Of a stretch of 64,000 nt of DNA, positions 17,501 to 58,903 are shown piece by piece. Location: assembly GCA_963575645.1 (NCBI GenBank), contig OY754475.1, positions 5,456,001 to 5,520,000 on the forward strand, given 5' to 3'. The position numbers were made by a program, and so were the translations under genes. Under the pieces are notes generated by a model. That model was not told the origin of the DNA and did not search any database. It saw only the letters and a program-made list of their open reading frames with translations. This DNA comes from Xanthostigma xanthostigma (lineage: Eukaryota > Arthropoda > Insecta > Raphidioptera > Raphidiidae). The number at the start of each line of letters is the position of its first letter. Positions within the stretch are counted from its first letter, which is position 1.

Positions 17501-18376
17501 CCGTCAAAGCCCGAAGTAACGAGCAAATCGTCTTTCGGGGAATATTCTATGTTTTTAACCTACAAGAATAAAACACAGAATTAATAAACGTAAAATTAAC
17601 GTAAATATTTCATAATAATTAACATTTACCCAATTTGAGTGTCCGTACAAAGTTCGAGTTCTGTATTTTAAGTTCCGAGCGTCCCAGAGTACGACTGTAC
17701 AATCATCGGAACAAGTAGCGAAGGTCCGCGAGTCTAGGAACCTGAAATCACGTACAGGCGTTAGTTAAATGTTTCGGTCCGACGGGGAAAAGTCAACTTA
17801 CCGAACACAATTGACGCAGTCTCCGTGTGCATCTCCGACGGAATAAATTAGTTTTCGAGTTAGTGGATCGAACATAAGAATCGATTTTTTTTCGCATGCT
17901 GCTACTAATAGAGATCTACAATAAAATAAATCGGTTAATATAGAATTCCTTGATTTAAGAAAGCATTGTCAATTTCAGTAATAACTGTCAGTCTGTCCGT
18001 ACTTGTTCATTGTTTAAAAAAATCTATGTCGACACGGTAACCAAAGTTTAATACTGTAAATTTATAGGAAGGCATCTGGAATATGATTTACTGTCAGAAT
18101 TTTCTTGTGGATAGTGTCTAATATAGGTTAGAATTTTGATTGATTAAGAATGTTACGGAAAACTTACCCGTCTGGCGAGAATTCTAAGTTGAAAACACCT
18201 CCGTGAATTTTATTTGTGATTAACTGATGGTGATCCCAGGAAGTACAGGGTAAAAGACTCGAATATAACGTTTTACAAAATCTATCCTCGAAACCTAAGC
18301 GTCTTCTGAAACCCAATTCCCTTTCGTGGAGCCATATGGGACTCACTATACGCTGTCGAACTTTAATTTTTGGCAT
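14507..18376 (-). CDS. Dcaf10: DCAF10, WD-repeat substrate receptor of CUL4-DDB1
   Basis: DCAF10 (WDR32) is a WD40 protein that binds DDB1 and recruits substrates to CUL4 ubiquitin ligases. Six exons, all GT-AG and in phase: 18168-18376, 17802-17915, 17630-17741, 17302-17559, 17025-17240 and 14507-15358. They give 586 aa, against about 559 in human. The N-terminus has the family block RQRIVSPIWLHERELGFRRR. WD repeats follow (GGVFNLEFSPDG, HGDCVNCVRFLDSRTF, HSNWVKNIEYSPKDDLLVTS), and a WDxR DDB1-docking box is seen at residues 127-130 (WDAR). A Ser/Thr-rich acidic linker in the last exon precedes the C-terminal repeats (GKGFIKELCFSPDGRLICSP, SKFSPKHQLLVTGCLSGKIV). The start is the first in-frame Met before the conserved block. 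Intron 5 (15359-17024) is full of inverted repeats and a transposase relic. Confidence 0.92.
16086..16403. repeat. Near-perfect long hairpin repeat in DCAF10 intron 5
   Basis: The left arm, about 16086-16200 (containing CCCACGACGAAAGTAAAAA and ATCCCCCGACTAAGAAAATC), returns as its exact inverse at about 16290-16403, with a loop of about 90 bp. No transposase is present. As part of a transcribed intron it would fold into a long RNA hairpin. Confidence 0.75.
16466..16709 (+). pseudogene. C-terminal relic of a mariner/Tc1-type transposase
   Basis: The frame reads KLWGFVKSK, then NNLNELKIQISNACQSV and HEM, the usual end of a DDE transposase of the mariner/Tc1 class. A frameshift near 16620 moves the rest (LANVKENIYNQLGYCLAERE, GLFEHLIN) to another frame, ending at 16707-16709. 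The catalytic domain is absent. The relic is on the strand opposite to DCAF10 in its intron 5. Confidence 0.7.
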
Positions 18377-19829: not shown

Positions 19830-22800
19830 CTATCTTATCTGGTTTATAACAAACTGAATTAAGAAACCTATAATTAAAATAACAGTAAATGGTTTTGAAT
19901 ACGACCCTGTATTTACATTTTCGTGACCGCTGTGATGACTGTGATCACCTTCATTTTCGTGATTTTTATTATGTTGTTCAGCCGTGTGTTCCGGCGTATG
20001 ATGAGCTTTCCTTTTTGTTCTAATATTATCCGATTGTTCAGCTGAACTTTTGAGAACATTGGTTGCGTTCAATTGTCTGATTTGTTCAGCCGTATGTTCC
20101 GCTGTATGGTGCGACTTTCTTTTTGTTCTGATATGATCCGATTGTTCCGCTGAACTTTCGAGAACGTTGGTTGCGTTCAATTGTCTAATTTGTTCAGCCG
20201 TATGTTCCGCTGTATGATGCGACTTTCTTTTTGTTCTGATATGATCCGATTGCTCAGTTGAACTTTCGAGAACGTTGGTTGCGTTCAATTGTCTGATTTG
20301 TTCAGCCGTATGTTCCGCTGTATGATGCGACTTTCTTTTTGTTCTGATATGATCCGATTGTTCCGCTGAACTTTCGAGAACGTTGGTTGCGTTCAATTGT
20401 CTGATTTGTTCAGCCGTATGTTCCGCTGTATGATGCGACTTTCTTTTTGTTCTAATATTATCCGATTGTTCAGCTGAACTTTTGAGAACATTGGTTGCGT
20501 TCAATTGTCTGATTTGTTCAGCCGTATGTTCCGCTGTATGGTGCGACTTTCTTTTTGTTCTGATATGATCCGATTGCTCAGTTGAACTTTCGAGAACGTT
20601 GGTTGCGTTCAATTGTCTGATTTGTTCAGCCGTATGTTCCGCTGTATGATGCGACTTTCTTTTTGTTCTGATATGATCCGATTGTTCAGTTGAACTTTCT
20701 AGAACATTGGTTGCGTTCAATTGTCTAATTTGTTCAGCCGTATGTTCCGCTGTATGATGCGACTTTCTTTTTGTTCTGATATGATCCGATTGTTCCGCTG
20801 AACTTTCGAGAACGTTGGTTGCGTTCAATTGTCTGATTTGTTCCGCCGTATGTTCCGCTGTATGATGCGACTTTCTTTTTGTTCTGATATGATCCGATTG
20901 TTCCGCTGAACTTTCGAGAACGTTGGTTGCGTTCAATTGTCTGATTTGTTCAGCCGTATGTTCCGCTGTATGATGCGACTTTCTTTTTGTTCTGATATGA
21001 TCCGATTGTTCCGCTGAACTTTCGAGAACGTTGGTTGCGTTCAATTGTCTGATTTGTTCAGCCGTATGTTCCGCTGTATGATGCGACTTTCTTTTTGTTC
21101 TGATATGATCCGATTGTTCCGCTGAACTTTCGAGAACGTTGGTTGCGTTCAATTGTCTAATTTGTTCAGCCGTATGTTCCGCTGTATGATGCGACTTTCT
21201 TTTTGTTCTGATATGATCCGATTGCTCAGTTGAACTTTCGAGAACGTTGGTTGCGTTCAATTGTCTAATTTGTTCAGCCGTATGTTCCGCTGTATGATGC
21301 GCCAATCTTTTAGCTCTTTTTGAATGTCCATCATCCTCATTTTTCGAATCATTTCGATTTTTAAATTTTTCTTCAATGGTGTGTTCAAGATTATGATGAG
21401 CTTCCCTTTTCTGTCTTTGCTCGTCTTCTTTAGCAACTCCAAACAATTCATCAAGTAATTTATCAAACATATTTTCTTCAGTGTTTTCTTCAGGTTTTTC
21501 AGTCGCTTCAGCTTGTCTCACTAAAACTAATTTCGTAGATTCTGTCGAAGAAATGTGCGGGCTAAATTGTTGAGCATTTGTAAATTTGGAAACTTGCGGA
21601 AACTGTGTTGGATGAACATGTTTGACTTGCGAATACAGTTGGGGTAAAGTTTCAGGTCGTAAGTTTTCAGGGATTGGTGGTGGCGCGTCGCCTTTAAAAG
21701 CAACATACTGCGGTTTTTCACGTATGAATTGTTCTGTTCTTGATAATCCATATTTGGGGTTGATATCCACTTGATGATTTATTGGCAAATCAACTGACGA
21801 TACTACTTTCCCATCAAAACTAACTATCGAACCAGCTGGTACTTCCAAATTTGATGGTTGTTCGGTATTTGGATGTATCCTGATACCATCAGATGGCGGT
21901 AGATAGTAACTGTCTAATCTTTCAGCAGCCATAACCATGTCATCTCCGTCTGAACTCTTAACATTGTCAGAACCTTCAAACTTCTTATTATATTTAACAT
22001 AAACCGGCCTTCTTCTAAGATTTGCATGATCCTTCTTTAAATTATTGACTCTTCGTCTTAAATTATTATCATCGTGTGTTTTTTCAACAGTAGAATTCAA
22101 CAATGCTGGTCTTCTATCAACTGGAGATGGTATAAACATCGGTTCAAATGTTTCGGTAGATTGTTGCGGTATATCGTTTGATTGATCTTGAGTCGGCCCT
22201 AAATCAATAACGCCTATGTTATCGGTGATTGGTTCCGTGCCAGTTTCTTCATGAACACGATCTTCAGCTTCAGTCAATCTCGGTTTTGTTGTTATCGGTT
22301 TAAAACCGCTTTCGATTACAACAGAGTCCGGTCGAAAACCGGTATTTCTTGCTGGTTTCATTGTAATGTATTTCTCCCATAATTCGGGTTTTATCGAAAT
22401 CATTGGCGAAGCTTGGACCGGAGCTGTCGACGAAGATAACAATTTTATCATTGTATGCATAGTCGGTTTTATTGGTATTGGTTTTGTAGAAGGCGGTGGT
22501 TGTGGTTTCAGAGTGGTTGATATTGGTTTCGCAGTGATTTCCGACAACGGTTTCATTCGTAATGGAGGTGGAACATTATTTTCTTGCAAAATCAAAACAC
22601 TTTCTTCAATAATAGGCGTTTTAGTTTTTACAATCTTACTCGCATATATTTCTTGATCTGCAATGTTTTGCATGGGTTTGGTTTTAAAAATAGATTGCTG
22701 TAAATTAGAAACTAGTTGTGTATTATCTGGAAATATCATCGGATGCGTTGTTGTTTTGTTGTGAAAAAATGATGGCGGTTGTTTAATTAGCATTGTAGGT

Positions 22801-23804
22801 TTTTGATTTTTATAATTTTGCATGAAATTCAGTTGAGCCATTGGATTTATCATCATCGGTTTGTGGTCTGGAAATTTTGAAGGGTACCTAGTAACAACCG
22901 GTCTCAAAACAGTTGACATCGCAACTGGTCTCTTGGTTGATGGTTTGAAATATGGCTTCTTCATCATAAAGTTAGGATTGTTCATGATTATGGTTGGTCG
23001 CATCATTGGACGGTTAGTAATTCCAAAACCAGGACCCATCGAATGTAACGGCTTCATCATGAAATTTGGTCTCACCATATTGTTCATTATAGGTCTCCTA
23101 ACGATCATTTGGTTCGGTGGAAAGTACGATTTTGGCGGTTGAATCAACGGTAAAGCTAGATTTGGATTCTGAGGATAAATATGATTATCGGGTACTGTTT
23201 TCGATTCTTGTAATATGCTTTCGGCAATTGATAATTTCTCTTCTGGTTCTATTGTTGTTGTCGGTGAATTTGTAGTCGTATCTTCAATTATTTCAGTGGT
23301 TGTTGATATTTCTTCTGTTGTCGGTGACGGAGTTGTTGTTGTGGTAGTTGATGTTGTTGAAGTGGTAATCATAGCACCTGTGGTAACTTCATGTATGGCC
23401 GATTCAGTGGTACCAATACTCTCGAAAAGGGCACTAGTAACATCACGAGGACTTGGTCTGAAATCAGTGAAAGAAGGGATTGTTTCATACTGAACAGGAT
23501 TGTACATGATTTGTTGTTGGTGATGATAAAGCGAGCTATAGTGGTCATTATCATTGTTATTTTTGTTACTGTATGGGTTAGTAGCTAGTAAGTGTGCTTT
23601 GCTTATGTCGTATAAGTGAAGATTGTTAGGTTTAATTCTAGTTTCGACTAGGATTGAAGGACTTGCTTTGAACTCGTCAGTGGCACCGCTTTCGAGATCG
23701 GCGGGAGCTTCGTGATAGGAAGGCACAGGATCACTTCCTTCGGGTGTGCTATCGCACGAATCCAGCACGTTGATTCTCCAACCCAAATAGCGATGCGAGA
23801 AACA
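19830..23804 (-). CDS. Skeletor: Skeletor terminal exon: mucin-like, proline-rich and repeat tail
   Basis: One exon of 1324 codons. It begins with the end of the plastocyanin-like domain (CFSHRYLGWRINVLDSC). After that come a Thr run near residues 145-190 (TTSTTTTTTPSPTTEE), a long Met/Pro/Lys-rich segment and an acidic segment with RQKR. Twelve 36-residue repeats occupy about 835-1268, followed by a His-rich spacer (HENEGDHSHHSGH) and a C-terminal hydrophobic stretch of about 18 residues that could be a GPI signal or membrane anchor. Long ORFs on the opposite strand here are by-products of the biased composition. Confidence 0.88.
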   Translation of the reverse strand, partial: CFSHRYLGWRINVLDSCDSTPEGSDPVPSYHEAPADLESGATDEFKASPSILVETRIKPNNLHLYDISKAHLLATNPYSNKNNNDNDHYSSLYHHQQQIMYNPVQYETIPSFTDFRPSPRDVTSALFESIGTTESAIHEVTTGAMITTSTTSTTTTTTPSPTTEEISTTTEIIEDTTTNSPTTTIEPEEKLSIAESILQESKTVPDNHIYPQNPNLALPLIQPPKSYFPPNQMIVRRPIMNNMVRPNFMMKPLHSMGPGFGITNRPMMRPTIIMNNPNFMMKKPYFKPSTKRPVAMSTVLRPVVTRYPSKFPDHKPMMINPMAQLNFMQNYKNQKPTMLIKQPPSFFHNKTTTHPMIFPDNTQLVSNLQQSIFKTKPMQNIADQEIYASKIVKTKTPIIEESVLILQENNVPPPLRMKPLSEITAKPISTTLKPQPPPSTKPIPIKPTMHTMIKLLSSSTAPVQASPMISIKPELWEKYITMKPARNTGFRPDSVVIESGFKPITTKPRLTEAEDRVHEETGTEPITDNIGVIDLGPTQDQSNDIPQQSTETFEPMFIPSPVDRRPALLNSTVEKTHDDNNLRRRVNNLKKDHANLRRRPVYVKYNKKFEGSDNVKSSDGDDMVMAAERLDSYYLPPSDGIRIHPNTEQPSNLEVPAGSIVSFDGKVVSSVDLPINHQVDINPKYGLSRTEQFIREKPQYVAFKGDAPPPIPENLRPETLPQLYSQVKHVHPTQFPQVSKFTNAQQFSPHISSTESTKLVLVRQAEATEKPEENTEENMFDKLLDELFGVAKEDEQRQKREAHHNLEHTIEEKFKNRNDSKNEDDGHSKRAKRLAHHTAEHTAEQIRQLNATNVLESSTEQSDHIRTKRKSHHTAEHTAEQIRQLNATNVLESSAEQSDHIRTKRKSHHTAEHTAEQIRQLNATNVLESSAEQSDHIRTKRKSHHTAEHTAEQIRQLNATNVLESSAEQSDHIRTKRKSHHTAEHTAEQIRQLNATNVLESSAEQSDHIRTKRKSHHTAEHTAEQIRQLNATNVLESSTEQSDHIRTKRKSHHTAEHTAEQIRQLNATNVLESSTEQSDHIRTKRKSHHTAEHTAEQIRQLNATNVLKSSAEQSDNIRTKRKSHHTAEHTAEQIRQLNATNVLESSAEQSDHIRTKRKSHHTAEHTAEQIRQLNATNVLESSTEQSDHIRTKRKSHHTAEHTAEQIRQLNATNVLESSAEQSDHIRTKRKSHHTAEHTAEQIRQLNATNVLKSSAEQSDNIRTKRKAHHTPEHTAEQHNKNHENEGDHSHHSGHENVNTGSYSKPFTVILIIGFLIQFVINQIR

Positions 23805-26800
23805 CTGAAAAAACAAATAAACCAGGATCAGCACCCCTGTGATTACGACGGACGATTTGGAGGAATTTCAAAGTACCTGATAATAAACGGTGTTTGGTGT
23901 GTTTTTATCTGGTGTCCATGTGATAACACCCGGTTCGCCTGCGTCGCAAACTAACTCAAGAGTACGTTGGTATCCTCCAAATGAGGCGAAGTCTTCTGGA
24001 GCGGCGTCACCTCGTGGTGTCCAATGACATAATCGACCGACACCGGTTGGAACGATTTCTCCTGAATTTGTTTGAGCGACTCCGGCAAATATCCTGTAGT
24101 TCTGTAACGAGAATGTTTTTAACAGTGTAAAATAAAATATAACATCAACACTAAAAATGTTTATTTATTTTTGAAAACATCTTCTTCTAATATTTACTTC
24201 AAAGAGATTAAATACTGAAGGCTTTTCACGAAACAATTGATTTTAAATGTATTTAAAGATAGTAAGTTTTTAAAATATGTTTCAGTTACTAACCGCTCTT
24301 TCTTCTGGAGTTCTATGCTCATATCCTCCAACTGGATCATCGGTAATATAGAACGGATGATATCTTGCCGGAACTTCCGGATCAATACCGCCTTCAACAA
24401 CAAACGTATACGTCTTTCCGCGAACTACGTTAATTTCAGGAATCAAAAGTCCATTGATGTACCATGAAATTCCCCACCCGACGTGTCCAGTAATAGCTGA
24501 ATATCCTTTCTTTCCACCAGTTGGCCCCATCTGTGCATAGAACACTCCGTCTTCGGGTTCGTAACATTGGATTGGTGGAATATCCCACGCTTCTTTACTA
24601 GCCACCGCTTTTGGAGTCGGAACTGGTCTCGGAGTGGTCGTGCTACCTCTTGCTTTTGTAGTTTGTCTGCTAGTTCCTCTTTGACTCGTTCTTCTTCTTT
24701 CGTTGGTCGATTCTTTCGACGAATCTTTCTCAGTTTCTTCTTCTTTGAATCGATTTCCACCTCTTTCGTTCTGACGAGACGGCACCCTGCTTGTTTGGGT
24801 TGTCGCACTATTCTGAGGACGATCGGTTTCTGGCATCGGACAGTTCCATTTCGGTTGACGACCGAAGTCGAGGAACTGATCGCCTTTCAAGTACTGACTG
24901 TGGAACGACACTTCGTTGCGCGAATTCAGAGGGCCGACAGCCCAAATTATTGGCTGCGATTGGTTAGTTAAAATGTGACGATCCAACTCGTCGGCCGGTT
25001 TCAAAGTTCTTTGATACGTCACAATCGAGTAGCCGTTGACCATCGCTGCGTTCAACAGACGGACGCTGTTCGAATTATCCTGAAAAACAAGAGTTCCGAT
25101 AAGAAATGAGTATCGGTCAAGCGTTTCAAGACATTTAGAACTTACAGCTAGACGTTCGTCAGGACAAGATCCTCTGGTTCCAGCGCATTGTGATTTGTCA
25201 TCGAGGAAGTAATCGATCGCGTATCCTTTCAGAGACGCCTTGTCTACCCAGGCCACAGTGACGTCACCTCCAATCATAGCGCTCTTGTGATCGTCGCCGG
25301 ATAAACCGAACGACATGTATTCGTTGTCTTCTGTAAAAAAAAATCGTATTACAGTATATTGTGCGACTAGTGAGAGAAGGAGAAGATTCCATGAGCGTGA
25401 AATTTGCCGCACGAGCGTAGCGGGTGCGGTAACACGCGAGTGGAATATTCTCCTTCGATCAATAGTCGCACATAATACTTTATTCAATTAGCACGAGTAA
25501 TATGTAATCGGGGCCCTGATAAAAGAGGGAGAAATAATAAATTACTTCATGTTGACGCGTAGAGTGCGAATAATGAGCCGAAACTGCACGGTAATATATT
25601 ACTGCATAGTTTCTGGACCAATAGGAACGCGGCAAACGTGAAGTAATTTATTATTTCTCCCAAATTTAACAGGGCCCCGAAATTATATATTACTCACGCG
25701 TGTTGATTAAACACTTTTTTTGCTCGACGGGCAGAAAGCGTCCACTTTCGTCCCGCTGCGCTAAACGAAGTTGCCTCTTCCTGCCTATACGTCGAGCAAA
25801 AAAATAGTATACACACCACGGGAAGTAAAGTAAGAAAGCCTAAGATCACATATTTGTTAACCTTGGCTTCGCGTCGGCCAACAATTATATGTGATCTCAG
25901 ACATTTCTTACTTTACCTCCCTAGGTGTGTAATATTATCTTTTACCCGCAACATAAAACGTTGAATAATTTGATGCGCTAGAAAAATATTCTTTTTTAAA
26001 GCCATTTGACAGAAAACTTTCTTATCTTTTTATAGCTTAGATTTCATTGACAAAATACTAAAAATCACAATTTCTGGCATATATTATATATACTCGTATA
26101 TGAATGCAATCACGTATTTTGGAAAGATTTGGTTTGTTTGCATGCTTTCTCGCGTTAAATTCAAGTAGTTTTTAAGTAAAATTCTTGTCTTTATCATTTC
26201 CGATTCCGTGTTGCGGATGTAGTTATTTTGTTAACAAATGAACGATTTGCTTCCTTATGATGCGCAAAAGGTTACAATAATATAATTGTTAATTCTAATT
26301 GTTTATACCTCTATACTAAGCGTCGAACAGTATTAATTGGTAGTTTCTTTTTAAACATTTAAAATTAATAAGAATTATAAAAACATTAACAGTGAATATC
26401 GTACTACTTATATTTTAAATTGTTGTAAACTGGTTTAGTTATTCCGCATAAATACATAAAAAATGTAATATTTTTGGCAGAAAGAAGAACAATTAAAAAT
26501 TATTTTTGTATTTTGTAGAGCGTGAAGATAATCTGATCGCATTTTTAATATTGAATATTTAAATACTTAAAACATTTTAATGCAAGACGATACAAAAAAA
26601 GGTACTGTGTTCCGTTTACGATTTCTAATCATTTCAGATGATCGCCGAGAGAAACTATATTATATTCGATTTATTAAATATGGAAATTCTATCATTATAG
26701 CGTAGCACGTTTACATTATACCCCCTGTGGCGAGAAAAGATCAAAAATAAAACGCTTCCTTCTGTAATATATTATGTGACAACATTTTGAATCGAAGAAA

Positions 26801-44800: not shown

Positions 44801-47800
44801 TTTAAGCCGCGACAAATCATGCAAAATATATATTTGTATAATTTAAAATAAAAAATGTAATTAATTCGTTACTAACCTGTGGACTAACTCCGAGCATCTT
44901 CAGCGACGGTGGAACATTGAGACCTGACGGTATTCGAGCATGTCCGAAATCGACAGTGAACGCCTCGCACCAAATTCCGAAATGTCCGATATCGAACACG
45001 GTGAGATCTCCGGGCAATGTCAATACGACCGTCTTTCGATCGTAGCGTCTGAGTGGGATTTCTTTTCCGTTTTCGTCAGGAACGCGTATCCCTTGAGGAG
45101 ACGGTTTCGGCCCGCGGCCAACCCAGAATTTCGCGTCTGTAAAGAAAATAATTACCCGGTAAATACCGCATACTTTTGGAACGAAGTTTCTTATGGGACA
45201 TTATAGATATGAATGGAGAGGGTTAGAAAAAAAAACGTAAGAATAAAGGCCGTAAAGAAAATCTATAACGAAAATCTAATCTAATTACCTATTGTATGTT
45301 CGTAGACCATTAAGCTATAGATTTTTGACGTGATAACGTCTTATAAATTGATGAATCACCAATATTATAAATTGATAAAACACCGGCTGCATGTACGAAA
45401 AAGTGTAACGTAACGTTCCTAACGCGTAACGCATAACGCGTAACGTTCCGCCTGACCCTGTGCGTGCTTTTTGCTAATTTCTCGCTCAATTTAAATCAGA
45501 TCGGTTTGAAACCAGTCTTAAACGAAAGAGGAGAACATTTTACATAGATTTCGTATAACAGAATTTGCCTAAACAGTTTTTTTATACAAATTTATATAGA
45601 AAAATAGCTGTATAAATGCAATGTTGTCTAATGCATGGCGCGACGCGGTCGGTTGTCTTTGTTTGCCGTACATGGAAATTAGAAGCAAACGTATGTCTTG
45701 TCTTAATATGAAAACGGCTGCATTTCTAATGTTTAATTCAATTTTTTGACATTAGTATATTGTGAAATGCAACGCCTTCTAAGTTAAGTATTGGAATAAC
45801 TAATTATTATTAGAACATAATACTTTGTAAGTTGCAAACGTCACTTTTGACATTTCTTATCATTCCGACAGCAAGGATAAGCGGATTGAAACCAAATTTT
45901 GGGAGGTTTAGGTTATGTATTACGGAATACGTTATCACGTAAAACTATCGTCCGTAAACCGACTTTACAGACAACCAATTTTTTAAGACATCTACAAAAA
46001 TGCGAGATTTGAGTGATTTATCTTCAAACCTGTAAGTTATCTGTTTTAAAATGAATATAGTTAATTGGAAATTCTCCGAAGCTATTATTTAAGTTCGAGG
46101 AGGTATTTTAAAGTTCGACAGTTAGTCGATAGTTCCCAAAGATGCTTAGCTAATGTTCATCATTTCAAGAAAATTCAAACCGTTTTAATCCATCTCAAAC
46201 TCGCTTTTCACTTAATATATGAAACTGTTTGATCAATGCACCTGAACTTTGCCTTCATTCTCTAAACTGCTTTGAACTTTGAACACCTACTTCCAAATAC
46301 AGTTGTCAATAGTGAACAAGTTACAAAAACAGTTTTAAGTAAAGGATTTCTACTTTATTGAAGTAAAACTTCTTTTTGGCACGCTTGACTTGGGGAGTAA
46401 GCTGGTAAATGCCTGACGAAATCATTTACGGAAATGCATCATTATATACAATTGTTTTTTTGTATCAAAAATACATTTCATCGAATTTTGCTGCATTTTG
46501 TAACGGGAAATAATTTAGGTTAGTTAATAAATTCTTTTAAATGTATTATAAATTATGCTAATAATTATATATACATATTTTGCCTATTAATTAATCAAAA
46601 ATTATATTTTAAACATTTCGTCTTTGTAGATATGTGCTACAGAGTGAGGTTATATTGTGTAAATCAGGATGTCTAATCAAAATATGGTGATAGATTATCG
46701 AATATTACTTATTGTATCCTTATTGTATCATTATTATATATTATTATGTATTATATATTGCAGGAAGAAGTTTTACTTCAGTCGTGTGGTCTAAAGCAAA
46801 CTCGGTTTTTTGATGAAAATATATACAGTGTAAACTTCATTCACCGTCACTCGATATAACGACAAACTCCTTAAAACGTCGAAATTACTTAACTCTAGTA
46901 GATTCACCTTGTTGCTCATACAATGGTACACTCTAAATAACGACACACCCAGTCTAAATAACGACAACAATACGTAATCATTAAGCAATAACCAGTGCTT
47001 GTTTGTTATTTTGTTGCTTTGTTGTCGGCATAATGCGTACCGAAGATTCTAAGAAATTCGTTCTTTTGTTTGTTGGGAATTGGGATTATCTTTCATATGT
47101 TTAGCTCAGCTGCTTATCGATAAGTTAACATATTCTTAGTTGCCCTCAAACTTGCAAACTGTGAACATGGCGAGTAAAAGAAAATCTATGTGTATTGGAA
47201 ATTTTAATGGATTATTTCTTCTGTCCGTTTAACGACAACTCTCAATGACGCCACAAAGTATAAAGTCCCTTAAAAGTTTATTACTAGCTGCCCGTCCCGG
47301 CTTCATCCGGGTGCAAAACTGTATGATTTATTAAATACATAGTCTCTCCCATTCAAAGTTCATGAACTATACGAACTCTGCATTATACATTTTGTGACTA
47401 CAATAAACTCAAATCAATACGGCGGACATTAAATAACATTGTATACTAGTCGTCGTAAACAAAACACAGCTGATTTATCGACGCGTGTTTGTTTGTGACG
47501 TTTATAACAAATGCAAGTGTTATATTAACAAGAGTTTGTTATAGTGTAAGCTCTTTAAATTAACGCGTTTTCATTGTAAAATAGAAAATTATATTCGGTA
47601 TATTATGCTGTTAAATATAGTACCTATGGCTTATAAACAGGAAAACTTTGTTGATTTGTATTCTCAAAAAAATGCTGAACCGATTTAAAAAATTATTTCG
47701 TTGTTTAAAAAAAAGACAAAAGAGGGATGAGAAGTGAGCGAAAATCTAAAGAAAATCAGAGAAGTCATATATGCCAAATTAAAATCTGTCAAACAAATGA

Positions 47801-50800: not shown

Positions 50801-53800
50801 TAAAATTGTAAATTCATTTTAAAGTTCATATTTTGTGAATTTTCGGGTGAATAATAACAAATTATGGCAGGAAGAAGTTTTACTTCAGTCGTGTGGTCTA
50901 AACTCTAAAGCACACTCGTTTTTTTTTTCGTCGACTTACGTTGCAAAACTGGTCGCCACGAAAAGCGCTCTTATTTTATCACGATAATTTATAGCCTATG
51001 TCCATCCTACATAATGGTGAAAAAATTTTTGAAATCGGATGAGTAGTTTCGGAGATTACCTCCTACATCCAAACTTACAAACTTTACTTCTTTATAATAT
51101 TAGTATAGATAATCTATACTAAAATATAAAATTTACACTCTTTATAATATTAGTATAGATATGCTCAGTTGCAGAAAGTATTGTCAGAAAATGTGATTTA
51201 ATAATGACGTTAGATTGTGAACATTCATATTTCTCTCTATGAAAAAGCGAAAGCACGTTTTTAAACTCACAAAATTCACCCGCTTAATCAATAATTTTTG
51301 AAGGTGGATATATAATCTTTTTGAAGACCCTGGACGCATTAAACTTGCTGGACAAGTAGCCTTTTACTTCTGCCTTTCTATATATATGTGTATACTATAT
51401 TAATGTTATAGGTGTCTATTGCACGTGAAATAACATTATGCAGGTATAGTCTGGCAAAGATAATTGCTACAAAACAAAACACTATTGGAATTTGTACTAA
51501 TCATATACGTTTATTCTATACTGAGCATAGGAATAAAATCGCAATCGAACCATTAGGGTGCAAAGACATACTTCTGTCTTTTTTTAAGCCGTAAGCACTG
51601 GCGTATCCAGGAGGGCAAAACAAGCACGGGGAACCGGCTTAAGAAATTTCTAATTTTCCCCCTCCTGGGCCAAAAGCTGAGTACGCCCATGTTAACGTCA
51701 TACAAAAGACAAAGTTTTTGAAACAGAGATACTTTATTCAGATTGAATGCAAGTACATCAACCAATCCTATCATCGGAGAAAGCAGGGAATTACATCGAA
51801 GAAAGAGACGCAGATATATTTTCGATACGCTTTGTTGCTTCCACTCACCGCACATTGAGTACATAGACAATGATTCAAATAGTAAATTATTAAATATATG
51901 GTACTAATTGTACGAAATAACATTCAAAAAGTTGAATGGAATACTTTTACGGAATGAGTTAAATTAAATAGATTTTTTCAGAATATTTTATTTTTATAAA
52001 TACAATTATTTTTAGAGCACTATTTAACCAGGATGGGCGTGACTTGCAAAAATGTTGCTTCGTGGTTTATGAAAATATTTTCTCACGTCGTTTTTATGTT
52101 TTATATAAAAATGTACTTAATTTAAAATATCGTGGATATGTTTTACATATTATAACAAACTTACGGCGGAAACAAAAAAAAAGTCATTTAAAGAAAAATA
52201 AAAAAATTGCATAGATTTATTTAATACTAGTTCCCCGGTCCGGCTTCACCCGAATTTGTAAATTGCCACCGTTTTTTTGTCGACTTACAAAATTGGTCTC
52301 CACGAAAAGCGTTTTGTAACACCACGTCTTAAAAAGACACGCCGCCACTGGTGTACTCTGGTGGTCATGTAGAAAAACAGAGGCAAGATGGCAGCGGAGC
52401 GTATGAACTAGGAAGTAGTGTTCATGTTAAAAAACTTAAATTAATAAGTGTGTTGAATAAAATAATAATAATTGTTACAAACTGGCGCCCAACGTGGGGC
52501 CCGATCACTCTCGAAAATATGTTGAATAAAATAATAATAATTGTTACAGGTTTTATTTCAATGCGATAATATATAGCCTATTATATGTCCATCCTGAAGG
52601 TCCATTCTAAATAATGGTGACATAATTTTTCAAATATGTTCAGTGATTCCAAAGATTATCCTCGCAAAATTTATACTCTCTATTATATTAATCAAGATTA
52701 TAGATGTTAACATTAAACTAAAAAGGCATTCTTTGACGATAAAATGTTCATTTATTAATTTTTTTAACCAACAGTTTTTTAACATTCAACATGAAATTTG
52801 TTTTTTAAAATGAAGTTTACTTTCTTTAATGCATTTCTTACATTTTCAACGAACTTTGATTATTGGGTAAAGTGTAAGTATGGAAAAAGGGGCATTCCCC
52901 AATAATAAACTTACCGGGTGCTTCCCCGTCGTACGACAAATTTGGAACCAATAGTGTTTGGGCATCGACTATAACGATGTTGTCAGAGGAAATTCCATGA
53001 ACACCTCTTAGTGGGTCCATCTTTTGTGGTTTTGGATACTCGAAACCGCGAGGTATTTTGACGTCGCCGAAGTTCACCTGTAAGACAAATAAAAGTCAAA
53101 TACCGTATTGCGTTATTTATCGAGATGCAATAATCTTTTTGTAATTTATGTTAAAATCTTTAATACGGAAATTTTATCCAAACGTCTAATGATACAGAGG
53201 TGGGAGTGGTCGGATCGATTCAGCGTGATTTTTTCTATATGAATACCATCGGTCGTTTGTGAACATTATCTAACAGATTAAAAAAAAATAATTAAAAAGT
53301 AAGAAGGGGGAATTTTTTTACACTTTAAACCGAAACAAAATTGAAAAATTTTTGAAAAATAGATTCGTCTGATATCATGCATACTTATAGAAAAAATCAC
53401 TCTGAATTGATTGCGACCACCCGCAACCTTGTATCTCTTTTAGTTTCGGAGATATAGCCAATTTAAACGGTTTAAATTTTTTTACACTTTAAACCGTGAT
53501 AGCGTCTAAACTAAGCGAGATACGAATTTGCGCTTAGGCCCAATCGATTCAGCGTACTTTTTTCTATAAGACACGTTACTATTAAGCATATCTGAAAAAA
53601 TTATATATTTTGCCAAAATCGCAAAACGTTCATGTTTTCATATGCGTTTTGCAAAAATTCAACTTTTTAAGACACTAAGCGACTTTTGGACCGTTCTATA
53701 CTAATCTAACTTATAGAAAATTTCAAGCTGAATCGATTCCGACAATCCGCAACCCTGTATCGCCTTTAGTTTCAGAGATATGAGCGCCTCTTTATATTAT

Positions 53801-55347
53801 TTGAGGAAAACTTAAAAACGCCATAACTTCTAATTAAGGTTAAAAGATTGTCAAGAATAGAACAACGATTAAAAATCTCTTTTGTTGTTACTTATAACCT
53901 TAAAAAAATATTGCAATCGAACTTTTTTGGCCTTGAAATTAATAGCCGTCCATATGCATTATTTATAACATATGAAAATCGTGACCAATCACGTGTAATT
54001 ATTGATACTCTGAAGTTAGTACATTATCAATAATACTGTATTTGACTAGTAAGGTTAGAACTATTTCCGTATTTTAAAATGGAACTACCTTGAAAGTATT
54101 CGAAATAATGTATCGCTTTTTTCGGAAGTTATTAAAAAGTAGTAATTATTTCTAATACAAGCAATTATTGGTTACATGAAAAAAAAAATATAGTGAGTTC
54201 CTGACAATCACACGAGATGTGTAAACATTCGGAAAAGAAATAACTCATCTTAAAAAAATGACAGCCGACAAAGGAGGATTAGCGAATAACAACTGACAAT
54301 TTAACCAGCACGAATCTGACCGTTTGAAAAGCTAATGGCAACTTAGTTGTCTAACATGTATTTCGCCAATTAAAGTGAATTCGTATTATGAAAAGTTGTC
54401 CTAACAATAAATATTAATTCATTCTAAAATTATGAAGTACCTAAAGTTTTGTTTGTTCTGCAGCTCTGATCGATGTAAAACGAACTTTCAAAGCCAGGAT
54501 TGCAAATAAAAAAAAACAGTTTATAAACTAACATTATAAGTATCGATTTTGACACAACGTTGTAACTAGTGATGTGCCGGATCGTTAAAAATGTATATCC
54601 GTGGATACGGATCTGAATACGGATATTTGGTTTCAAGATCCGCGGATACGGATACGGATCTTAACTTTCTTAGAGTACGCAACGGTAAATATTGCACATC
54701 GACCTTTGGAAAGAGATTATCTGTTATGGGAAAAAGTTATTGACCTCTTTAAGAGTTAACTCTCACAACAGATTGTCTCTTTCCAAAGATCGATGTGCAA
54801 TATCTCATTATAAAGATAGTTTTTTAGTACCTTTGAGTTATGTACTATTGATATGGTACTCACTACGATAAATATAAAGGTGCCAAATACGATTTTAAAA
54901 AATAAAAAATAATCTGAATGGAATTTAACAGTTTTCCATTATTACCTAATCACCTATATATATAAAATTTCATCTATGAATTGAAAATTAATAAGGTAAA
55001 AGATCCGCCAAAAACTAACGGATACGAATACGGATCTTTCTTCTCCTTCGGATATCCGGCACATCACTAGTTGTAATATCTACTACCCATTTTCCGTCTA
55101 TTCTTCACTAATGAGTGCCGATGGTTGATGGGAATATCTGAAAACGTGTCTGGATATAAACTTACAGAGAACTCATCACACCAGACGCTGAACCACTTGA
55201 TACTGTTGAGTGTTTTGCCGTCGGGTAGTGTCAAGGTGATACTCTTCTTCCTGTAACGTTTCAACACTCCCGGACTGCCCGTCTCGTCGCGGATACGGAA
55301 ACCGGAGCCGCTTGGCGCCTTCGAGTTGCCGACGTAGAAGTAAGCCG
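19830..55347 (-). CDS. Skeletor: Skeletor/Knk3-type DM13-DOMON protein, 3' eight exons
   Basis: This is a paralogue of knk. Skeletor was described as a Drosophila spindle-matrix protein, and the family also acts in cuticle organisation. Exons, all GT-AG and in phase: 55166-55347, 52915-53077, 44877-45136, 32704-32803, 25146-25330, 24294-25079, 23877-24101 and 19830-23804, giving about 1957 residues. The visible part starts inside the first DM13 domain (YFYVGN), then a second DM13 (LSYDGEAP, FWVGRGPKPS), DOMON (DNEYMSFGLSGDDHKSA), a disordered RS/T-rich linker, a plastocyanin-like region (ISWYINGLLIPE, HPFYITDDPVGG, YLGWRINVLDSC) and a huge last exon with Thr/Pro-rich and tandem-repeat parts ending in a hydrophobic tail (FTVILIIGFLIQFVI). 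The signal peptide and first half of DM13-1 were not found by 64000. Introns reach 12 kb. Confidence 0.9.
19999..21302 (-). repeat. Coding tandem array, 12 units of 108 bp
   Basis: Each 36-aa unit has HHTAEHTAEQIRQLNATNVL, then (E/K)SS(A/T)EQSD(H/N)I and RTKR, then K(S/A). Units differ at three residues only and at a few silent sites. Counting from the N-terminus the variable residue pattern is T,A,A,A,A,T,T,A,A,T,A,A, with units 8 and 12 carrying the K and N variants. A degenerate thirteenth start (KAHHTPEHTAEQH) follows. Each unit has one N-glycosylation sequon (NAT) and ends in an R-x-K-R furin-type site. Confidence 0.95.
25345..25945. repeat. Four successive imperfect palindromes
   Basis: Four back-to-back inverted repeats lie just upstream of Skeletor exon 25146-25330. 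The first, about 25348-25490, has arms with TATTGTGCGACTAGTG/GTCGCACATAATA. The second, about 25508-25685, has GGGGCCCTG and AGAAATAATAAATTACTTCA. The third, about 25708-25805, has TTTTTTTGCTCGACGGGCAG. The fourth, about 25805-25940, has GGAAGTAAAGTAAGAAA. The central loop of the first contains CGCACGAGCGTAGCGGGTGC. Nothing is coding. Confidence 0.7.
25946..28254. other. Skeletor intron sequence, nothing recognised
   Basis: AT-rich intron sequence within 25331-32703. I see no exon with coherent splice sites, no RNA gene and no element with clear ends. A short imperfect palindrome with CCACAAAACTG/GTGGTC words lies near 27600-27715. Confidence 0.4.
28255..28910. mobile_element. hAT-type element, CAGTGGCGGATTTAC ends
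   Basis: Begins CAGTGGCGGATTTAC and ends GTAAATCCGCCACTG, a perfect 15-bp terminal inverted repeat. Flanks CGATAAAA (28247-28254) and CGATCAAA (28911-28918) match in seven of eight positions. Subterminal GCCTAGGGCGGCAGAT and AGGCGGCAAATC are also inverted. The 656-bp element is non-coding. Confidence 0.85.
29105..29285. repeat. Inverted repeat around a CTGAGGA...GAAAC hairpin
   Basis: Arms sharing AATATTATTTTTTTTAAGA and AAAAAATGCTG.TATTTTCAAT are inverted on the two sides of a core at 29175-29207. The core reads CTGAGGA, a 7-bp stem with a small loop, then GAAACGTC. The same core arrangement occurs four times in all in this window, with the others near 61940, 62112-62153 and 62167. Confidence 0.6.
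29286..31805. other. Skeletor intron sequence with a decayed R1 repeat
   Basis: No supported gene. An R1-like fragment occurs near 30640-30790 (ACGTAAGTCCACGAAAAAAGG, GGGCGAAGCCCATCCCGG). A generic transposon end, GCGAAGCACGTACAGGGCCGCTAG, occurs near 30127-30150. Near 31255-31320 there is a weak tRNA-like segment on the minus strand that I do not call. Confidence 0.4.
31806..32302. mobile_element. hAT-type element, CAGTG(C)CGGATTAA ends
   Basis: Begins CAGTGCCGGATTAAC and ends TTAATCCGACACTG. Flanks TCGAAATA (31798-31805) and TCGAAACA (32303-32310) match in seven of eight positions. Subterminal GCTTAGGGCATCA occurs near both ends. Non-coding, 497 bp, in Skeletor intron 25331-32703. Confidence 0.82.
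32948..33190. repeat. Imperfect inverted repeat in Skeletor intron
   Basis: The left part ATAGACTATAGAGATACTAG and CCGTGAAAGTGTC is mirrored by GACACTTTCACTTACGG and ATATCTCTATGGTCTGA. This gives a 240-bp palindromic element just upstream (minus sense) of exon 32704-32803. Confidence 0.5.
33802..33900. repeat. Short palindromic element
   Basis: CACCACACTGGCCGAAA and TTTCGGCCAGTGTGGTG are perfect inverse copies about 40 bp apart. They are extended by AAATAGTATA and TATACTATTT. The hairpin is about 99 bp long and lies in Skeletor intron 32804-44876. Confidence 0.7.
33901..35809. other. Skeletor intron sequence, nothing recognised
   Basis: AT-rich intron without supported ORF, splice-consistent exon, RNA gene or bounded element. 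Confidence 0.4.
35810..36237. mobile_element. Dispersed element E1, uninterrupted copy
   Basis: Shared with the interrupted copy at 43375-44757. Common words are TTCTAGCGCTGGTTTTCT, GTGACAGTTCAAATAT, ACACAGAGCAAAACGTGTCT and GGCCAGCAGAACTCCAAGCA. Non-coding, class unknown. Confidence 0.6.
36242..36718. mobile_element. Truncated hAT-type GATACGG-rich element
   Basis: A relative of 54567-55069. It starts TAGTGATGTTCCGGATCG and shares the internal GGATACGGATCTGAATACGG and the small hairpin ATTGCACATCGACCTTTGG/CGATGTGCAATA. Its far end lacks the terminal repeat, so it is 3'-truncated or diverged. Confidence 0.65.
37336..37720. repeat. Second copy of the 25345-25945 palindromes, loop inverted
   Basis: It begins with the same TATTGTGCGACTAGTGAGAG palindrome, followed by GGGCCCTGATAAAAGAGGG. 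The segment between the second pair of arms (CGTTCCTATGGGTCCAGAAA to ACTCTACGCGTCAAC) is in the opposite orientation to the first copy. A piece of unrelated sequence (37540-37620) is also present. Confidence 0.65.
38556..38790. mobile_element. ATCGAT-rich miniature element
   Basis: The stretch opens ACAGGGTTGCAACGATATATCG and is packed with ATATCGATA words in inverted order at both ends, such as ATTATCGATAATATCG and CGATATTATCGATATCGG. This resembles non-autonomous hAT elements. Borders are approximate and no target duplication was read. Confidence 0.45.
38791..41747. other. Skeletor intron sequence, nothing gene-like
   Basis: Very AT-rich. Words GTGTATTTTAAACTACACACTGGAG and GTTCTACAGTCGG near 40330-40480 recur near 58275-58345, so a degraded repeat is present. 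No coding exon is supported. Confidence 0.4.
41748..42599 (-). CDS. Q/N-rich protein, unrecognised, nested in a Skeletor intron
   Basis: A single ORF of 283 codons. The first 35 residues are hydrophobic (FFCGIVWIFFRSSCFFFLSF, then IFIAFEE) and could be a signal peptide or anchor. A short unique region follows (IPFLTPEIQSLLPSSLHHQQ). Residues about 95-283 are dominated by Gln and Asn with spaced aromatic and Arg residues (QQQYNNVPQRQYFDQQSQQQ, RQNNFNNNQLQQQQ). A TATA-like box lies upstream of the ATG in the correct sense. There is a good splice acceptor (TTCTGATGTTACAG) near 42452, so an alternative 5' exon is possible. No family is recognised. Secreted cuticle or silk-like and prion-like candidates both fit. 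It lies in the same sense as Skeletor, within the intron 32804-44876. Confidence 0.55.
   Translation of the reverse strand: MKPDCSAFFCGIVWIFFRSSCFFFLSFIFIAFEENEAVVSFLFLMLQKHARAIPFLTPEIQSLLPSSLHHQQTFQSFAQGVPQNQLLEATTYRPQIPFIRQQQHHQQQQPLVPQQHQQQSLHFQQHQQQSLRPQHNSVDQSFQIQQSISIPTANDFQRRNSFNNQQFNQYNNIPQQQYNNVPQRQYFDQQSQQQQFIYNNQQFPQNNFNNRQNNFNNNQLQQQQFYYEQQQINARRQQLYQLEQQRFNNNQQYNLQQQLGRSVNRFDLGQQNQYRQQNFQQFG
42692..42698 (-). promoter_or_regulatory. TATA box upstream of the Q/N-rich ORF
   Basis: The minus strand reads TTTATATAAC about 95 bp before the ATG at 42599. Two ATGs between the box and the main start each reach a stop within a few codons, which would make them very short upstream ORFs. 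Confidence 0.4.
43490..43985. repeat. Tandem repeat, three units of about 170 bp
   Basis: Units start near 43494, 43660 and 43825 and share TGTATGACCAC.CATAA, AGAGTAGTCCGATTTTGATA, AAAGGGTATACCCCGAAGTT and CCTAAGGGTAGGAAAACAGG. The third unit is the most diverged. No ORF continues through them. Confidence 0.8.
44044..44419. repeat. Long perfect inverted repeat, arms of about 145 bp
   Basis: The left arm runs from AACTTTTTAACAAAAAAATT to GAGTCGGCGTCAA (about 44044-44190). Its exact inverse is at about 44273-44419, with an 80-bp loop. The arms look base-for-base complementary, which points to recent origin. Confidence 0.82.
46360..46795. mobile_element. Inverted-repeat element M2, copy 1
   Basis: Starts TTGAAGTAAAACTTCTTTTTGGCACGC and ends GGAAGAAGTTTTACTTCAGTCGTGTGGTCTAAA. 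The TGAAGTAAAACTTCTT block is inverted at the two ends. The copy at 50585-50915 shares both ends and the following CTTGACTTGG.GAGTAAG.TGGT.AATGC.TGACGA. Confidence 0.65.
48415..48643. repeat. Inverted repeat, arms of about 60 bp
   Basis: AAAAGTATGAAACAAGAAAA and TCATCTGAGGATAGCCG are mirrored by CGGCTATCCTCAGATGA and TTTTCTTGTTTCATACTTTT with few mismatches. The loop is about 100 bp. This is a miniature element type. Confidence 0.72.
49752..49975. repeat. R1 repeat copy
   Basis: One of the fuller R1 copies. It opens ACCAATATTATAAAGAGAAA, then GTAAGTTTGGATGTG, CCGATTTCAAAAATG, GACCTTCAGGATGGA, GTCGACGAAAAAACGGTGGC and ends GGGCGAAGCCGGACCGGG. The order suits a retroposon 3' region. Confidence 0.6.
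50585..50915. mobile_element. Inverted-repeat element M2, copy 2
   Basis: Same ends as 46360-46795 (TGAAGTAAAACTTCTTTACG and GGAAGAAGTTTTACTTCAGT) but a different, GC-richer centre (CGAGCGAGGCGAACGGAATAG). It is flanked on both sides by R1 fragments (50520-50580 and 50930-51108) and may have been inserted in one R1 copy. Confidence 0.65.
52236..52700. repeat. R1 repeat copy split by an LTR element
   Basis: 52236-52314 holds GGTCCGGCTTCACCCGAATTTG through CTCCACGAAAAGCG. 52549-52700 continues with TTTTATTTCAATGCGATAAT, ATATAGCC and GTCCATCCTGAAGGTCCA. The halves join in the normal R1 order if 52315-52548 is removed. Confidence 0.65.
52315..52548 (+). mobile_element. Miniature LTR element with lysine-tRNA primer site
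   Basis: The LTR-like segment 52315-52479 starts TGTAACACCACG and ends AATTGTTACA. Three bases later, at 52483-52500, TGGCGCCCAACGTGGGGC is a classical primer binding site matching the 3' end of lysine tRNA. After about 20 bp the LTR end (TGTTGAATAAAATAATAATA, ATTGTTACA) is repeated to 52548. There is no coding region. The flanks CGTTT and GGTTT suggest a 5-bp duplication with one change. It is a deleted LTR retrotransposon or a TRIM-like element. Confidence 0.75.
53160..53860. repeat. Diverged internally repeated block
   Basis: Two words recur about 350 bp apart. ATCGATTCAGCGT.TTTTTTCTAT occurs near 53214 and 53556. The set GATT.CGAC.A.CCGCAACC.TGTATC, TTTAGTTTC.GAGATAT occurs near 53410 and 53735. 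CACTTTAAACCG is also repeated. It is probably an old transposon fragment in Skeletor intron 53078-55165. Confidence 0.5.
54567..55069. mobile_element. hAT-type GATACGG-rich element next to a Skeletor exon
   Basis: Ends are TAGTGATGTGCCGGATC and GGATATCCGGCACATCACTA. Flanks GTTGTAAC (54559-54566) and GTTGTAAT (55070-55077) match in seven of eight positions. The interior has many GGATACGGATCT words and a hairpin built on TTGCACATCGACCTTTGG. It ends 97 bp from the DM13 exon at 55166. Confidence 0.85.
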
Positions 55348-56816
55348 CTGCAAACGACAAAACGGTCGTACATTAAAAACGATCCAGTCAATTCGCATTA
55401 GAATGGATATAGCTTACAAAGATTTATATTTAAGAAAAAGAAATGTGATTTTTCAATAAATATACATTTATTTCTGTACGGTTTCAACGATATATCTATA
55501 TAGTTGGAAAGCTAACGAACATTTTTGAGAGGTATTTGAGGCGAAGTAAAAATTTGTGTAACACATACCCTACCGCTAATCTAGCGGTATGTGCTTTATT
55601 ATCGCTTTGCGCGTCAGATCTGACTTTCGTTCACATAAGAAGTTATATCTAAGTTAATTTCACACGAAATCCATTCAAATTGAAGCATTTTGAAAAGAGG
55701 AGATTCTGATCTATAAAACAGAACCATTTTTAAATCCATTCGAGTTCATAAATACTACTAAAATTGTAATTGAAAATCACGAACAGCAGTTGTCGGTTGG
55801 TCTGTATGTATGTACGTCTACAGATCGCAATTTTGGTCGGATTGTCTTGGGTTATATTTTATTCACTTTGTATACTTTCAGACCAGAACCCTATTAATTC
55901 ACTAAAATGTGTTCAGTATAGTTTAATTTTTATAAACTAGTTTTATTTTATTATTTTTGACAGCTAATAGTTAAAAACAAAACAAAAATGTTTGTTTTGC
56001 AGTTATTAAAAAAATATTATTATAATATGTACATTGGAAAACTATTCTGTGATGTTAGAACGCAAAATCGAAGATTTGGCTGAGGGCTAGTGGGGCCTAT
56101 ACAGCTAAGCTGTGAATTTGTAACTTAGCAAATTTTATAGACAAAAAAAGTCCTAGAAGCATTTTGAAATTTTAATACCTTCAAATTTAGTATTTAATAA
56201 AATAAAAAATAAACAAACCAGATCATTTAGTCGGGTCTGAATGTCTCCCAAATTCGAATAAGAATAGAAAAAATAAAAATTTTGAATAGGTTTCTTTAAT
56301 TTTTGCAAAGTGTAGTTACAGTCAATTAATTGTATTTAATCATTAATGTCATAGTTAATTGGAAACGACCCTTATCTGAAAGAGAGAGAGAGATAGAGAG
56401 GTGTTATGTTACAAAGAGGAATTCAATGTTACCTACTTTATTATTAACTGTATAATGTCATGTCAACCTAAATACTTTTAAGTTCAATGTTTCTCTATAA
56501 CTTGGCCGTAGAAGGTTGAATTGTACAATAAATTAAAAAAAATCTTTTAACTTATCTGATTTTAACAATTATATATGTAACGCATGATGGCCTGATATGA
56601 TTAAAAAAAAGTGTGTGTGTGTGTGTGTGTCAGCTCCGACGCACGACTGGAGTTTACTCCTTAGATACGCTGTGTAATGTATTCCATCTCATTCTTTCGC
56701 ACGTTAAATCCTACAGATATATATCTTTGTCTCTCTGTATTCCATCTCATTCTTTCGCACGTTAAATCCTACAGATATATTATATGTTTTTCTCTTTTGT
56801 ATTCCATCTTATTCAA

Positions 56817-58671: not shown

Positions 58672-58903
58672 TTTATAGTATGTCTCATGAATCGATTTTT
58701 CCATACCGTGTCAAAAGAAGTTTTAATTCAAAAATTGACATACGCTACTATTTTTTATGGTATAGATTTTATGAACTCCCTATGGTAAAGCTGAAACAAA
58801 TGAAGCTATTAATTAGAAATGTCTTATCTATACGTATATTTAAAATTTCAATAGTTCAGTTTGCTGGAAGTTTTGAAATACTAACTCGTTTTGTAGTGAA
58901 ACA

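Follow-up and report, generated by a model that had tools for sequence, protein, structure and literature searches.

What is a long, histidine-rich repeat array doing in the tail of a Skeletor/Knk-like protein: is it cut into peptides, kept whole as a stalk, or simply tolerated? The question is raised by a stretch of 64,000 nucleotides of the Xanthostigma xanthostigma genome (contig OY754475.1, positions 5,456,001 to 5,520,000; hereafter the window), in which a first-pass annotation, made from the letters alone, had read the end of a Skeletor gene as a precursor of a dozen near-identical peptides separated by furin-type sites.

Gene structure and the 55-nucleotide stretch

The assignment to a Skeletor gene is supported by matches to the DM13 and DOMON domains (table 1). 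By its sequence, the array gene is a Skeletor/Knk3-like member of the Skeletor/Knk family, a placement that we make because it combines two DM13 parts, a DOMON domain, and a C-terminal domain common with a neighbouring gene; indeed, the ORFs at 23871-24164 and 24285-25487 both match that neighbouring Knk gene, the C-terminal domain being common to Knk paralogues. A further upstream exon, encoding the first half of a DM13 and preceded by a splice acceptor, lies 2 kb outside the window (L017, 3013-3129). The signal-peptide exon of the array gene was not found in the 75 kb beyond the window, which were searched with DM13 queries only; a regex scan of the window returned no more DM13 exons either, but it missed the known DM13 exons too and hence provides no evidence.

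Several other features surround this gene. A second Knk-family gene (4014-7536, minus strand), arranged head to tail with the Skeletor gene, has a DM13, a partial DOMON below the cut-off and a short hydrophobic C-terminus, with no long tail. The Skeletor gene region also holds a Gln-rich ORF of 286 aa (41748-42608, minus strand; no Pfam match at E 0.01), which is perhaps an exon of another isoform, and a 165-bp tandem repeat in three copies (43495-43985). Two chemosensory-receptor-like ORFs (58877-60100 and 60686-61702, plus strand) lie on the opposite strand inside the span of the gene, the former matching 7tm_7 and the latter resembling the former by eye. Finally, WD40-like ORF pieces on the minus strand, at 14507-15358 (WD40 match just below the cut-off) and 17266-17559 (by eye), resemble AMBRA1. 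Elsewhere in the genome, COX1 is carried by contig C28, with two partial nuclear matches besides, and the mitochondrial tRNAs run in the order I-Q-M, the ancestral arrangement of insects and crustaceans.

Table 1. Features of the array gene in the window, with the basis of each call
Feature	Position	Strand	Basis
Partial last unit KAHHTPEHTAEQ, His-rich stretch and hydrophobic C-terminus (GPI-signal-like)	19833..20009	-	translation; GPI by analogy with TcKnk3-FL-2
Last exon (exon 9 equivalent), long reading frame	19830..23804	-	splice sites read from sequence
Twelve 36-aa tandem units, consensus KSHHTAEHTAEQIRQLNATNVLESSAEQSDHIRTKR	20010..21305	-	ORF translation, Tandem Repeats Finder, codon analysis
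Diverged first unit, 33 aa, EAHHNLEHTIEE...RAKR, sequon NDS	21306..21404	-	alignment to consensus against shuffles
RQKR, first basic site, between upstream tail and repeats	21405..21416	-	ORF translation
55-nt GT...AG stretch, apparent equivalent of Tribolium "exon 8a"	23749..23803	-	sequence and published description
72-nt intron between exons 8 and 9	23805..23876	-	sequence
Exon 8, conserved C-terminal Knk domain	23877..24101	-	sequence; ends VYYQ
ORF with DOMON domain (exon and intron sequence)	24285..25487	-	PF03351, E 8.6e-12
ORF with DM13 domain part	44820..45200	-	PF10517, E 4.5e-18
ORF resembling DM13-bearing exon of neighbouring Knk gene	52844..53095	-	blastp E 6e-9; no Pfam match
ORF with DM13 domain part	55073..55372	-	PF10517, E 2.6e-15

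Beyond what had been claimed at first, the tail turns out to depend on the retention of a 55-nt stretch that begins one base into exon 9: when it is kept, the tail frame is open, and when it is removed, the protein stops after 33 codons. In the open frame, exons 8 and 9 join to encode 1399 aa from the start of exon 8 to the stop codon (19830-19832, minus strand). In Tribolium Knk3, "exon 8a" is likewise described as a stretch of 55 nt that starts with GT and, if retained, gives access to a long frame for which a GPI anchor is predicted; RNA-seq is reported there to support a similar retained stretch in Drosophila Skeletor (PMC4140639). The gene studied here thus has in common with TcKnk3-FL-2 and the long isoform of Skeletor, as these are described, a DM13-DOMON protein whose long C-terminal frame is opened by a 55-nt GT...AG stretch (PMC4140639). 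This stretch ends with TAG here and with CAG in Tribolium, the comparison otherwise resting on the published description, and the tails differ in length, with about 477 aa in Tribolium (1205 minus 728) against 1324 aa after exon 8 here (PMC4140639). TcKnk3-FL-2 has a predicted GPI end; here, the extreme C-terminus consists, by eye, of small residues followed by a hydrophobic run, and by analogy this GPI-signal-like end is probably a GPI-type anchor signal.

The repeat array and selection on its protein

The tail frame (ORF 19830-23867, minus strand) contains exactly 12 tandem units of 36 residues, the number first proposed, with a span of 20010-21305 that is a few bases off the 19999-21302 initially given. 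The motifs ascribed to each unit are borne out by the translation: HHTAEHTAEQ, a NAT sequon and a closing RTKR each recur in 12/12 units, and the RTKR is followed by KS in 11 cases and by KA in one. Tandem Repeats Finder describes the array with a period of 108, 12.3 copies and 95% matches, and the units are on average 95.8% identical (pairwise range 88.9-100%). GC3 is 0.34 in the array versus 0.29 in the rest of the exon. The RQKR and RAKR motifs reported ahead of the array are also present, and we add that they bound a diverged unit of 33 aa, of which RAKR (21306-21317, minus strand) is the end. This unit retains HH, EHT, a sequon (NDS) and R-x-K-R, and its alignment score against the consensus is above those of 20000/20000 shuffles of the same unit. 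Since it has kept 6 of the first 12 residues and 3 of the last 4, against 4 of the 16 aligned middle ones, the block around the putative cut is the best kept.

With regard to its origin, the array seems to be confined to a single place. In the 623-Mb source genome, at least 12 matches were recovered at E up to 0.001, all of them at this locus (17/17 candidates scored). The viral collection IMG/VR, scanned with the array and diverged unit, gave three pattern matches and no relative, and no relative turned up in prokaryote genomes (50 pattern matches) or among PDB sequences at E up to 1; these collections do not bear on other insects. Units 12 (20010-20117) and 8 (20442-20549) have common derived variants (Lys23, Asn31 and synonymous changes), which is a sign of block duplication or conversion inside the array; together with the high mean identity of the copies, these variants indicate that the expansion is recent.

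Such a recent expansion is what one would expect of a tolerated minisatellite, that is, of a 108-bp coding unit that unequal crossing-over would have multiplied in a disordered tail and whose copies would matter by their length only, and the difference in tail length from the Tribolium protein, as published, points the same way. Yet the units differ mostly by synonymous changes, which argues that the array protein is under selection. Among the 15 mutations counted across the 12 units, six are nonsynonymous and nine synonymous, when random mutation of the consensus would yield a nonsynonymous share of 71-78% (P 0.0017-0.011 over three ts/tv ratios, values that are rough because gene conversion can spread variants). 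Three of the six nonsynonymous changes fall in unit 1, in its first two codons and so at the array edge, and leaving this unit out gives three nonsynonymous and nine synonymous changes (P 0.00015-0.0012, rough for the same reason); accordingly, omega among units goes from about 0.19-0.27 to 0.09-0.13. Synonymous changes fall within the conserved blocks too (codons of His3, Ala10 and Arg36). As HHTAEHTAEQ, NAT and RTKR are moreover intact in every unit and much of the conserved block is also kept in the diverged one, we regard the minisatellite explanation as unlikely.

The array also looks translated in this frame, judging from its codons. In a tandem of the consensus unit, the coding frame alone is open, the other five frames having 3-6 stops per 107 codons.

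Two Pfam hits on the tail were rejected as likely artefacts of its repeats, no single stretch passing alone: Phage_tail_terminator_6 (E 1.7e-9, above the cut-off) and HA (E 1.4e-5, below the cut-off). Automatic annotation may thus mislabel the tail protein (ORF 19833-23867, minus strand) as Phage_tail_terminator_6, a false match that probably comes from summed weak repeats. The HxxEH of the units resembles the M16 protease motif, but this reading was dropped, 36 residues being too few for an enzyme of that kind.

Basic sites, predicted copper-binding ends and the fate of the tail

The exon ORF contains 14 R-x-[KR]-R sites, every one of them at a unit border, and none occurs in the 793 residues before them, so that 13 units (one of them diverged) are bounded by 14 basic R-x-K-R motifs in the layout of a multicopy precursor. 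P4 is Arg, P2 Lys and P1 Arg at 14/14 sites; on the other side of the predicted cut, P2' is always Ala or Ser and P3' always His, when P1' is Lys at 12 sites, Leu at one and Glu at one (RQKR followed by EAHH). All 14 sites fit R-x-K-R followed by x-[A/S]-H-H-x-x-E-H. Any basic site would be copied by tandem duplication whether or not it is ever cut, which counts against reading the array as a precursor. When the array is collapsed to one copy, three R-x-[KR]-R sites are left against 0.20 expected, all with His at P3'; 17/20000 shuffles reach three sites and 0/20000 reach three with His at P3', a test that overstates independence because the three remaining sites are homologous to each other.

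On this basis, the explanation that we favour, with a probability that we would put close to an even chance, is that the tail is a multicopy peptide precursor within the long isoform of a Skeletor/Knk3 cuticle protein. We infer the following course, from secretion and glycosylation to cleavage, metal binding and a role in the cuticle. An mRNA that retains the 55-nt stretch would add a Thr-rich stretch, the His-rich array and the hydrophobic, probably GPI-type, end to the protein. A furin-type convertase of the secretory path would then cut at all 14 R-x-K-R sites or at a subset of them (predicted substrate stretches SDHIRTKRKSHH and SDHIRTKRKSHHTAEHTAEQ), which would detach the portion ahead of the array from the anchor, leave a His-rich stub on the membrane and set free as many as 13 N-glycosylated peptides, each some 33-36 residues long or shorter if trimmed. 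The predicted average masses are near 3840.05 Da for a peptide ending RT and 4124.41 Da for one ending RTKR, to which a glycan would add. Each product would start with X-(A/S)-His-His, a putative ATCUN copper-binding end located beside a second His and HxxEH (predicted free N-terminal stretch KSHHTAEHTAEQ), and the peptides may take up Cu(II) and have a local role in the new cuticle, such as aiding catechol oxidation or joining the matrix.

The enzyme that this course calls for has candidates in the source genome, where four convertase P-domain matches were found on two contigs, at three places in all; the match compared with furin structures is clearly furin-like (E 4e-74). Lysine, the P1' residue of most sites, is disfavoured by furin at this position. 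According to published work on furin, Ser is preferred at P1' and aliphatic residues are incompatible (PMC3713968). Cutting of the array sites by PC2-type enzymes, or partial cutting, is possible.

The residues that follow the sites bear on cleavage in another way. The ATCUN rule requires that positions 1-2 be free of Pro, and the N-termini predicted after a cut behind the Arg agree with it in 14/14 cases, with His as the third residue and no Pro ahead of it. An X-X-His sequence with a free amino group is described as the ATCUN motif, which binds Cu(II)/Ni(II), for instance in histatin and hepcidin (PMC7701195). A cut after the Arg would therefore give each product an X-X-His end, that is, a candidate Cu(II)/Ni(II) motif as far as sequence can tell. 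Because the motif is absent from the uncut chain, it ties the array sequence to cleavage, and the variation of P1' (E, L, K) next to a fixed Ala/Ser at P2' and His at P3' is the pattern that an ATCUN end allows. The predicted ends resemble those of the ATCUN peptides histatin 5 and hepcidin by their X-X-His N-terminus, histatin 5 starting with DSH and having His pairs too; unlike these peptides as described, up to 14 ends are predicted from one precursor, only upon cleavage, and they are known here from sequence (PMC7701195). Concerning what such ends may do, the Cu-ATCUN complex of an amyloid peptide was reported not to be redox-inert towards catechols, and the N-terminal copper complex of the same peptide also suppressed catechol oxidation by a second, His-pair site (PMC8155989). 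A bolder proposal, which we consider rather improbable, is that tail cleavage constitutes a metal switch: the uncut tail would have no ATCUN motif, and the cut one would simultaneously expose as many as 14 X-X-His-His ends (those of 13 free glycopeptides and of the membrane His-rich stub), supplying or buffering copper or oxidising catechols where new cuticle hardens, with splicing of the 55-nt stretch setting the timing.

The main rival of the precursor is an uncut repeat stalk, in which the array would be a spacer between the protein domains and the membrane anchor, either as a helical rod or as a flexible glycosylated stretch; we grant it an appreciable chance, albeit one well short of even. 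The best evidence for such a stalk is a model: run on the single sequence of the array, AlphaFold predicts an almost wholly helical chain (helices 2-22, 32-239 and 246-468 of 469 residues), with a mean pLDDT of 68.3 and a pTM of 0.23 for the best model and mean pLDDTs of 62.6, 60.5, 59.8 and 38.6 for the other four. Since the 36-residue period equals exactly ten helix turns (36 x 100 degrees), a rod with all its glycans on one face is conceivable; it would measure about 65 nm (432 residues, with a helix rise of 0.15 nm each), the glycan, His pair and basic patch of every unit recurring on the same face. On a stalk, the basic and His clusters would act as fixed binding sites for chitin, catechols or metal. 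A structural repeat would fit the selection on the protein equally well, the P1' residues are poor for furin, and a helical array, if the helix is real, would be disliked by a convertase. However, the helical moment of the array is low (0.02-0.31 in 18-residue windows), so that no coiled coil or amphipathic rod is expected, and the model comes from one sequence, at low confidence and with no control, when single-sequence AlphaFold runs on repeats tend to give helices; for these reasons, we weigh it lightly. Nor would a stalk need the diverged unit to keep R-x-K-R in full.

A third way of reading the sites is that a single ancestral one, the RQKR that precedes EAHH, functions in shedding, releasing the upstream part from the anchor, and that the later copies are passengers. 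This site is the sole one whose P1' (Glu) is other than Lys or Leu, and one cut would presumably be enough to shed a GPI-anchored protein, but the preservation of RTKR in 12/12 units with few protein changes makes this scenario very unlikely in our view.

Precedents and meaning for the Knk family

By analogy, the array would sit in the counterpart of the region encoded by the Tribolium exon-8a transcripts, which are described as needed for moulting, RNAi against exon 8a resulting in moulting arrest and death (PMC4140639). The authors of that study suggest that C-terminal sequences or the anchor may be critical, with no mechanism given in their account (PMC4140639). Because the lethality was assigned to transcripts without a known signal peptide, it counts slightly against the precursor reading and in favour of the stalk: an essential short Tribolium product of this kind argues against the tail being secreted in such a form, since a product without a signal peptide might never enter the secretory path.

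Overall, the initial proposal of a furin-cut precursor survives in part. It is carried by the R-x-K-R sites, found at all unit borders and only there, by a frame that looks translated under low omega, by the ATCUN-type pattern from P1' to P3', by the convertase genes of the genome, and by two outside points, the Tribolium exon-8a form, with its predicted GPI anchor and its requirement for moulting, and the precedent of Baramicin; it is weakened by the P1' residues, with Lys at 12 sites and Leu at another, by the helical AlphaFold model, and by the signal-peptide exon that our search did not recover. In this regard, Drosophila Baramicin A is likewise a single insect precursor with tandem related peptides and furin sites between them, whose processing was shown; likened here by its description, it differs as an immune peptide gene with RXRR sites rather than the tail of a cuticle protein (PMC8423362). 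In fungi, Ustilago Rep1 and other KEX2-processed repeat proteins offer a comparable case, the Rep1 precursor being cut to 37-aa peptides that control hyphal wall properties; again by description, it differs in being fungal and is not described as fused to a chitin-organising protein (PMC6339444). Furin-cut repeat precursors of insects and wall-acting repeat peptides of fungi are hence known, and what appears to be new here is a candidate of this kind in a Knk-family protein, with its ATCUN pattern. That no such array had been described in Skeletor/Knk proteins, as the first-pass annotation held, agrees with the open-access literature, in which we found no text with both "Skeletor" and "furin", and no repeat-peptide precursor built into a Knk-family protein was found in the open-licence part of PubMed Central. 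The main text of the Tribolium Knk3 paper uses "repeat" 0 times and "furin" 0 times, and, the comparison being by description, basic sites may be common to both proteins (PMC4140639).

Should the tail serve as a peptide precursor, what is essential may be the released peptides or a shed protein. The predicted ATCUN ends of the array may in turn be linked to the hardening of the cuticle and, if this were true, processed copper-binding ends would connect a protein that organises chitin with the chemistry of copper and catechols by which cuticle hardens.
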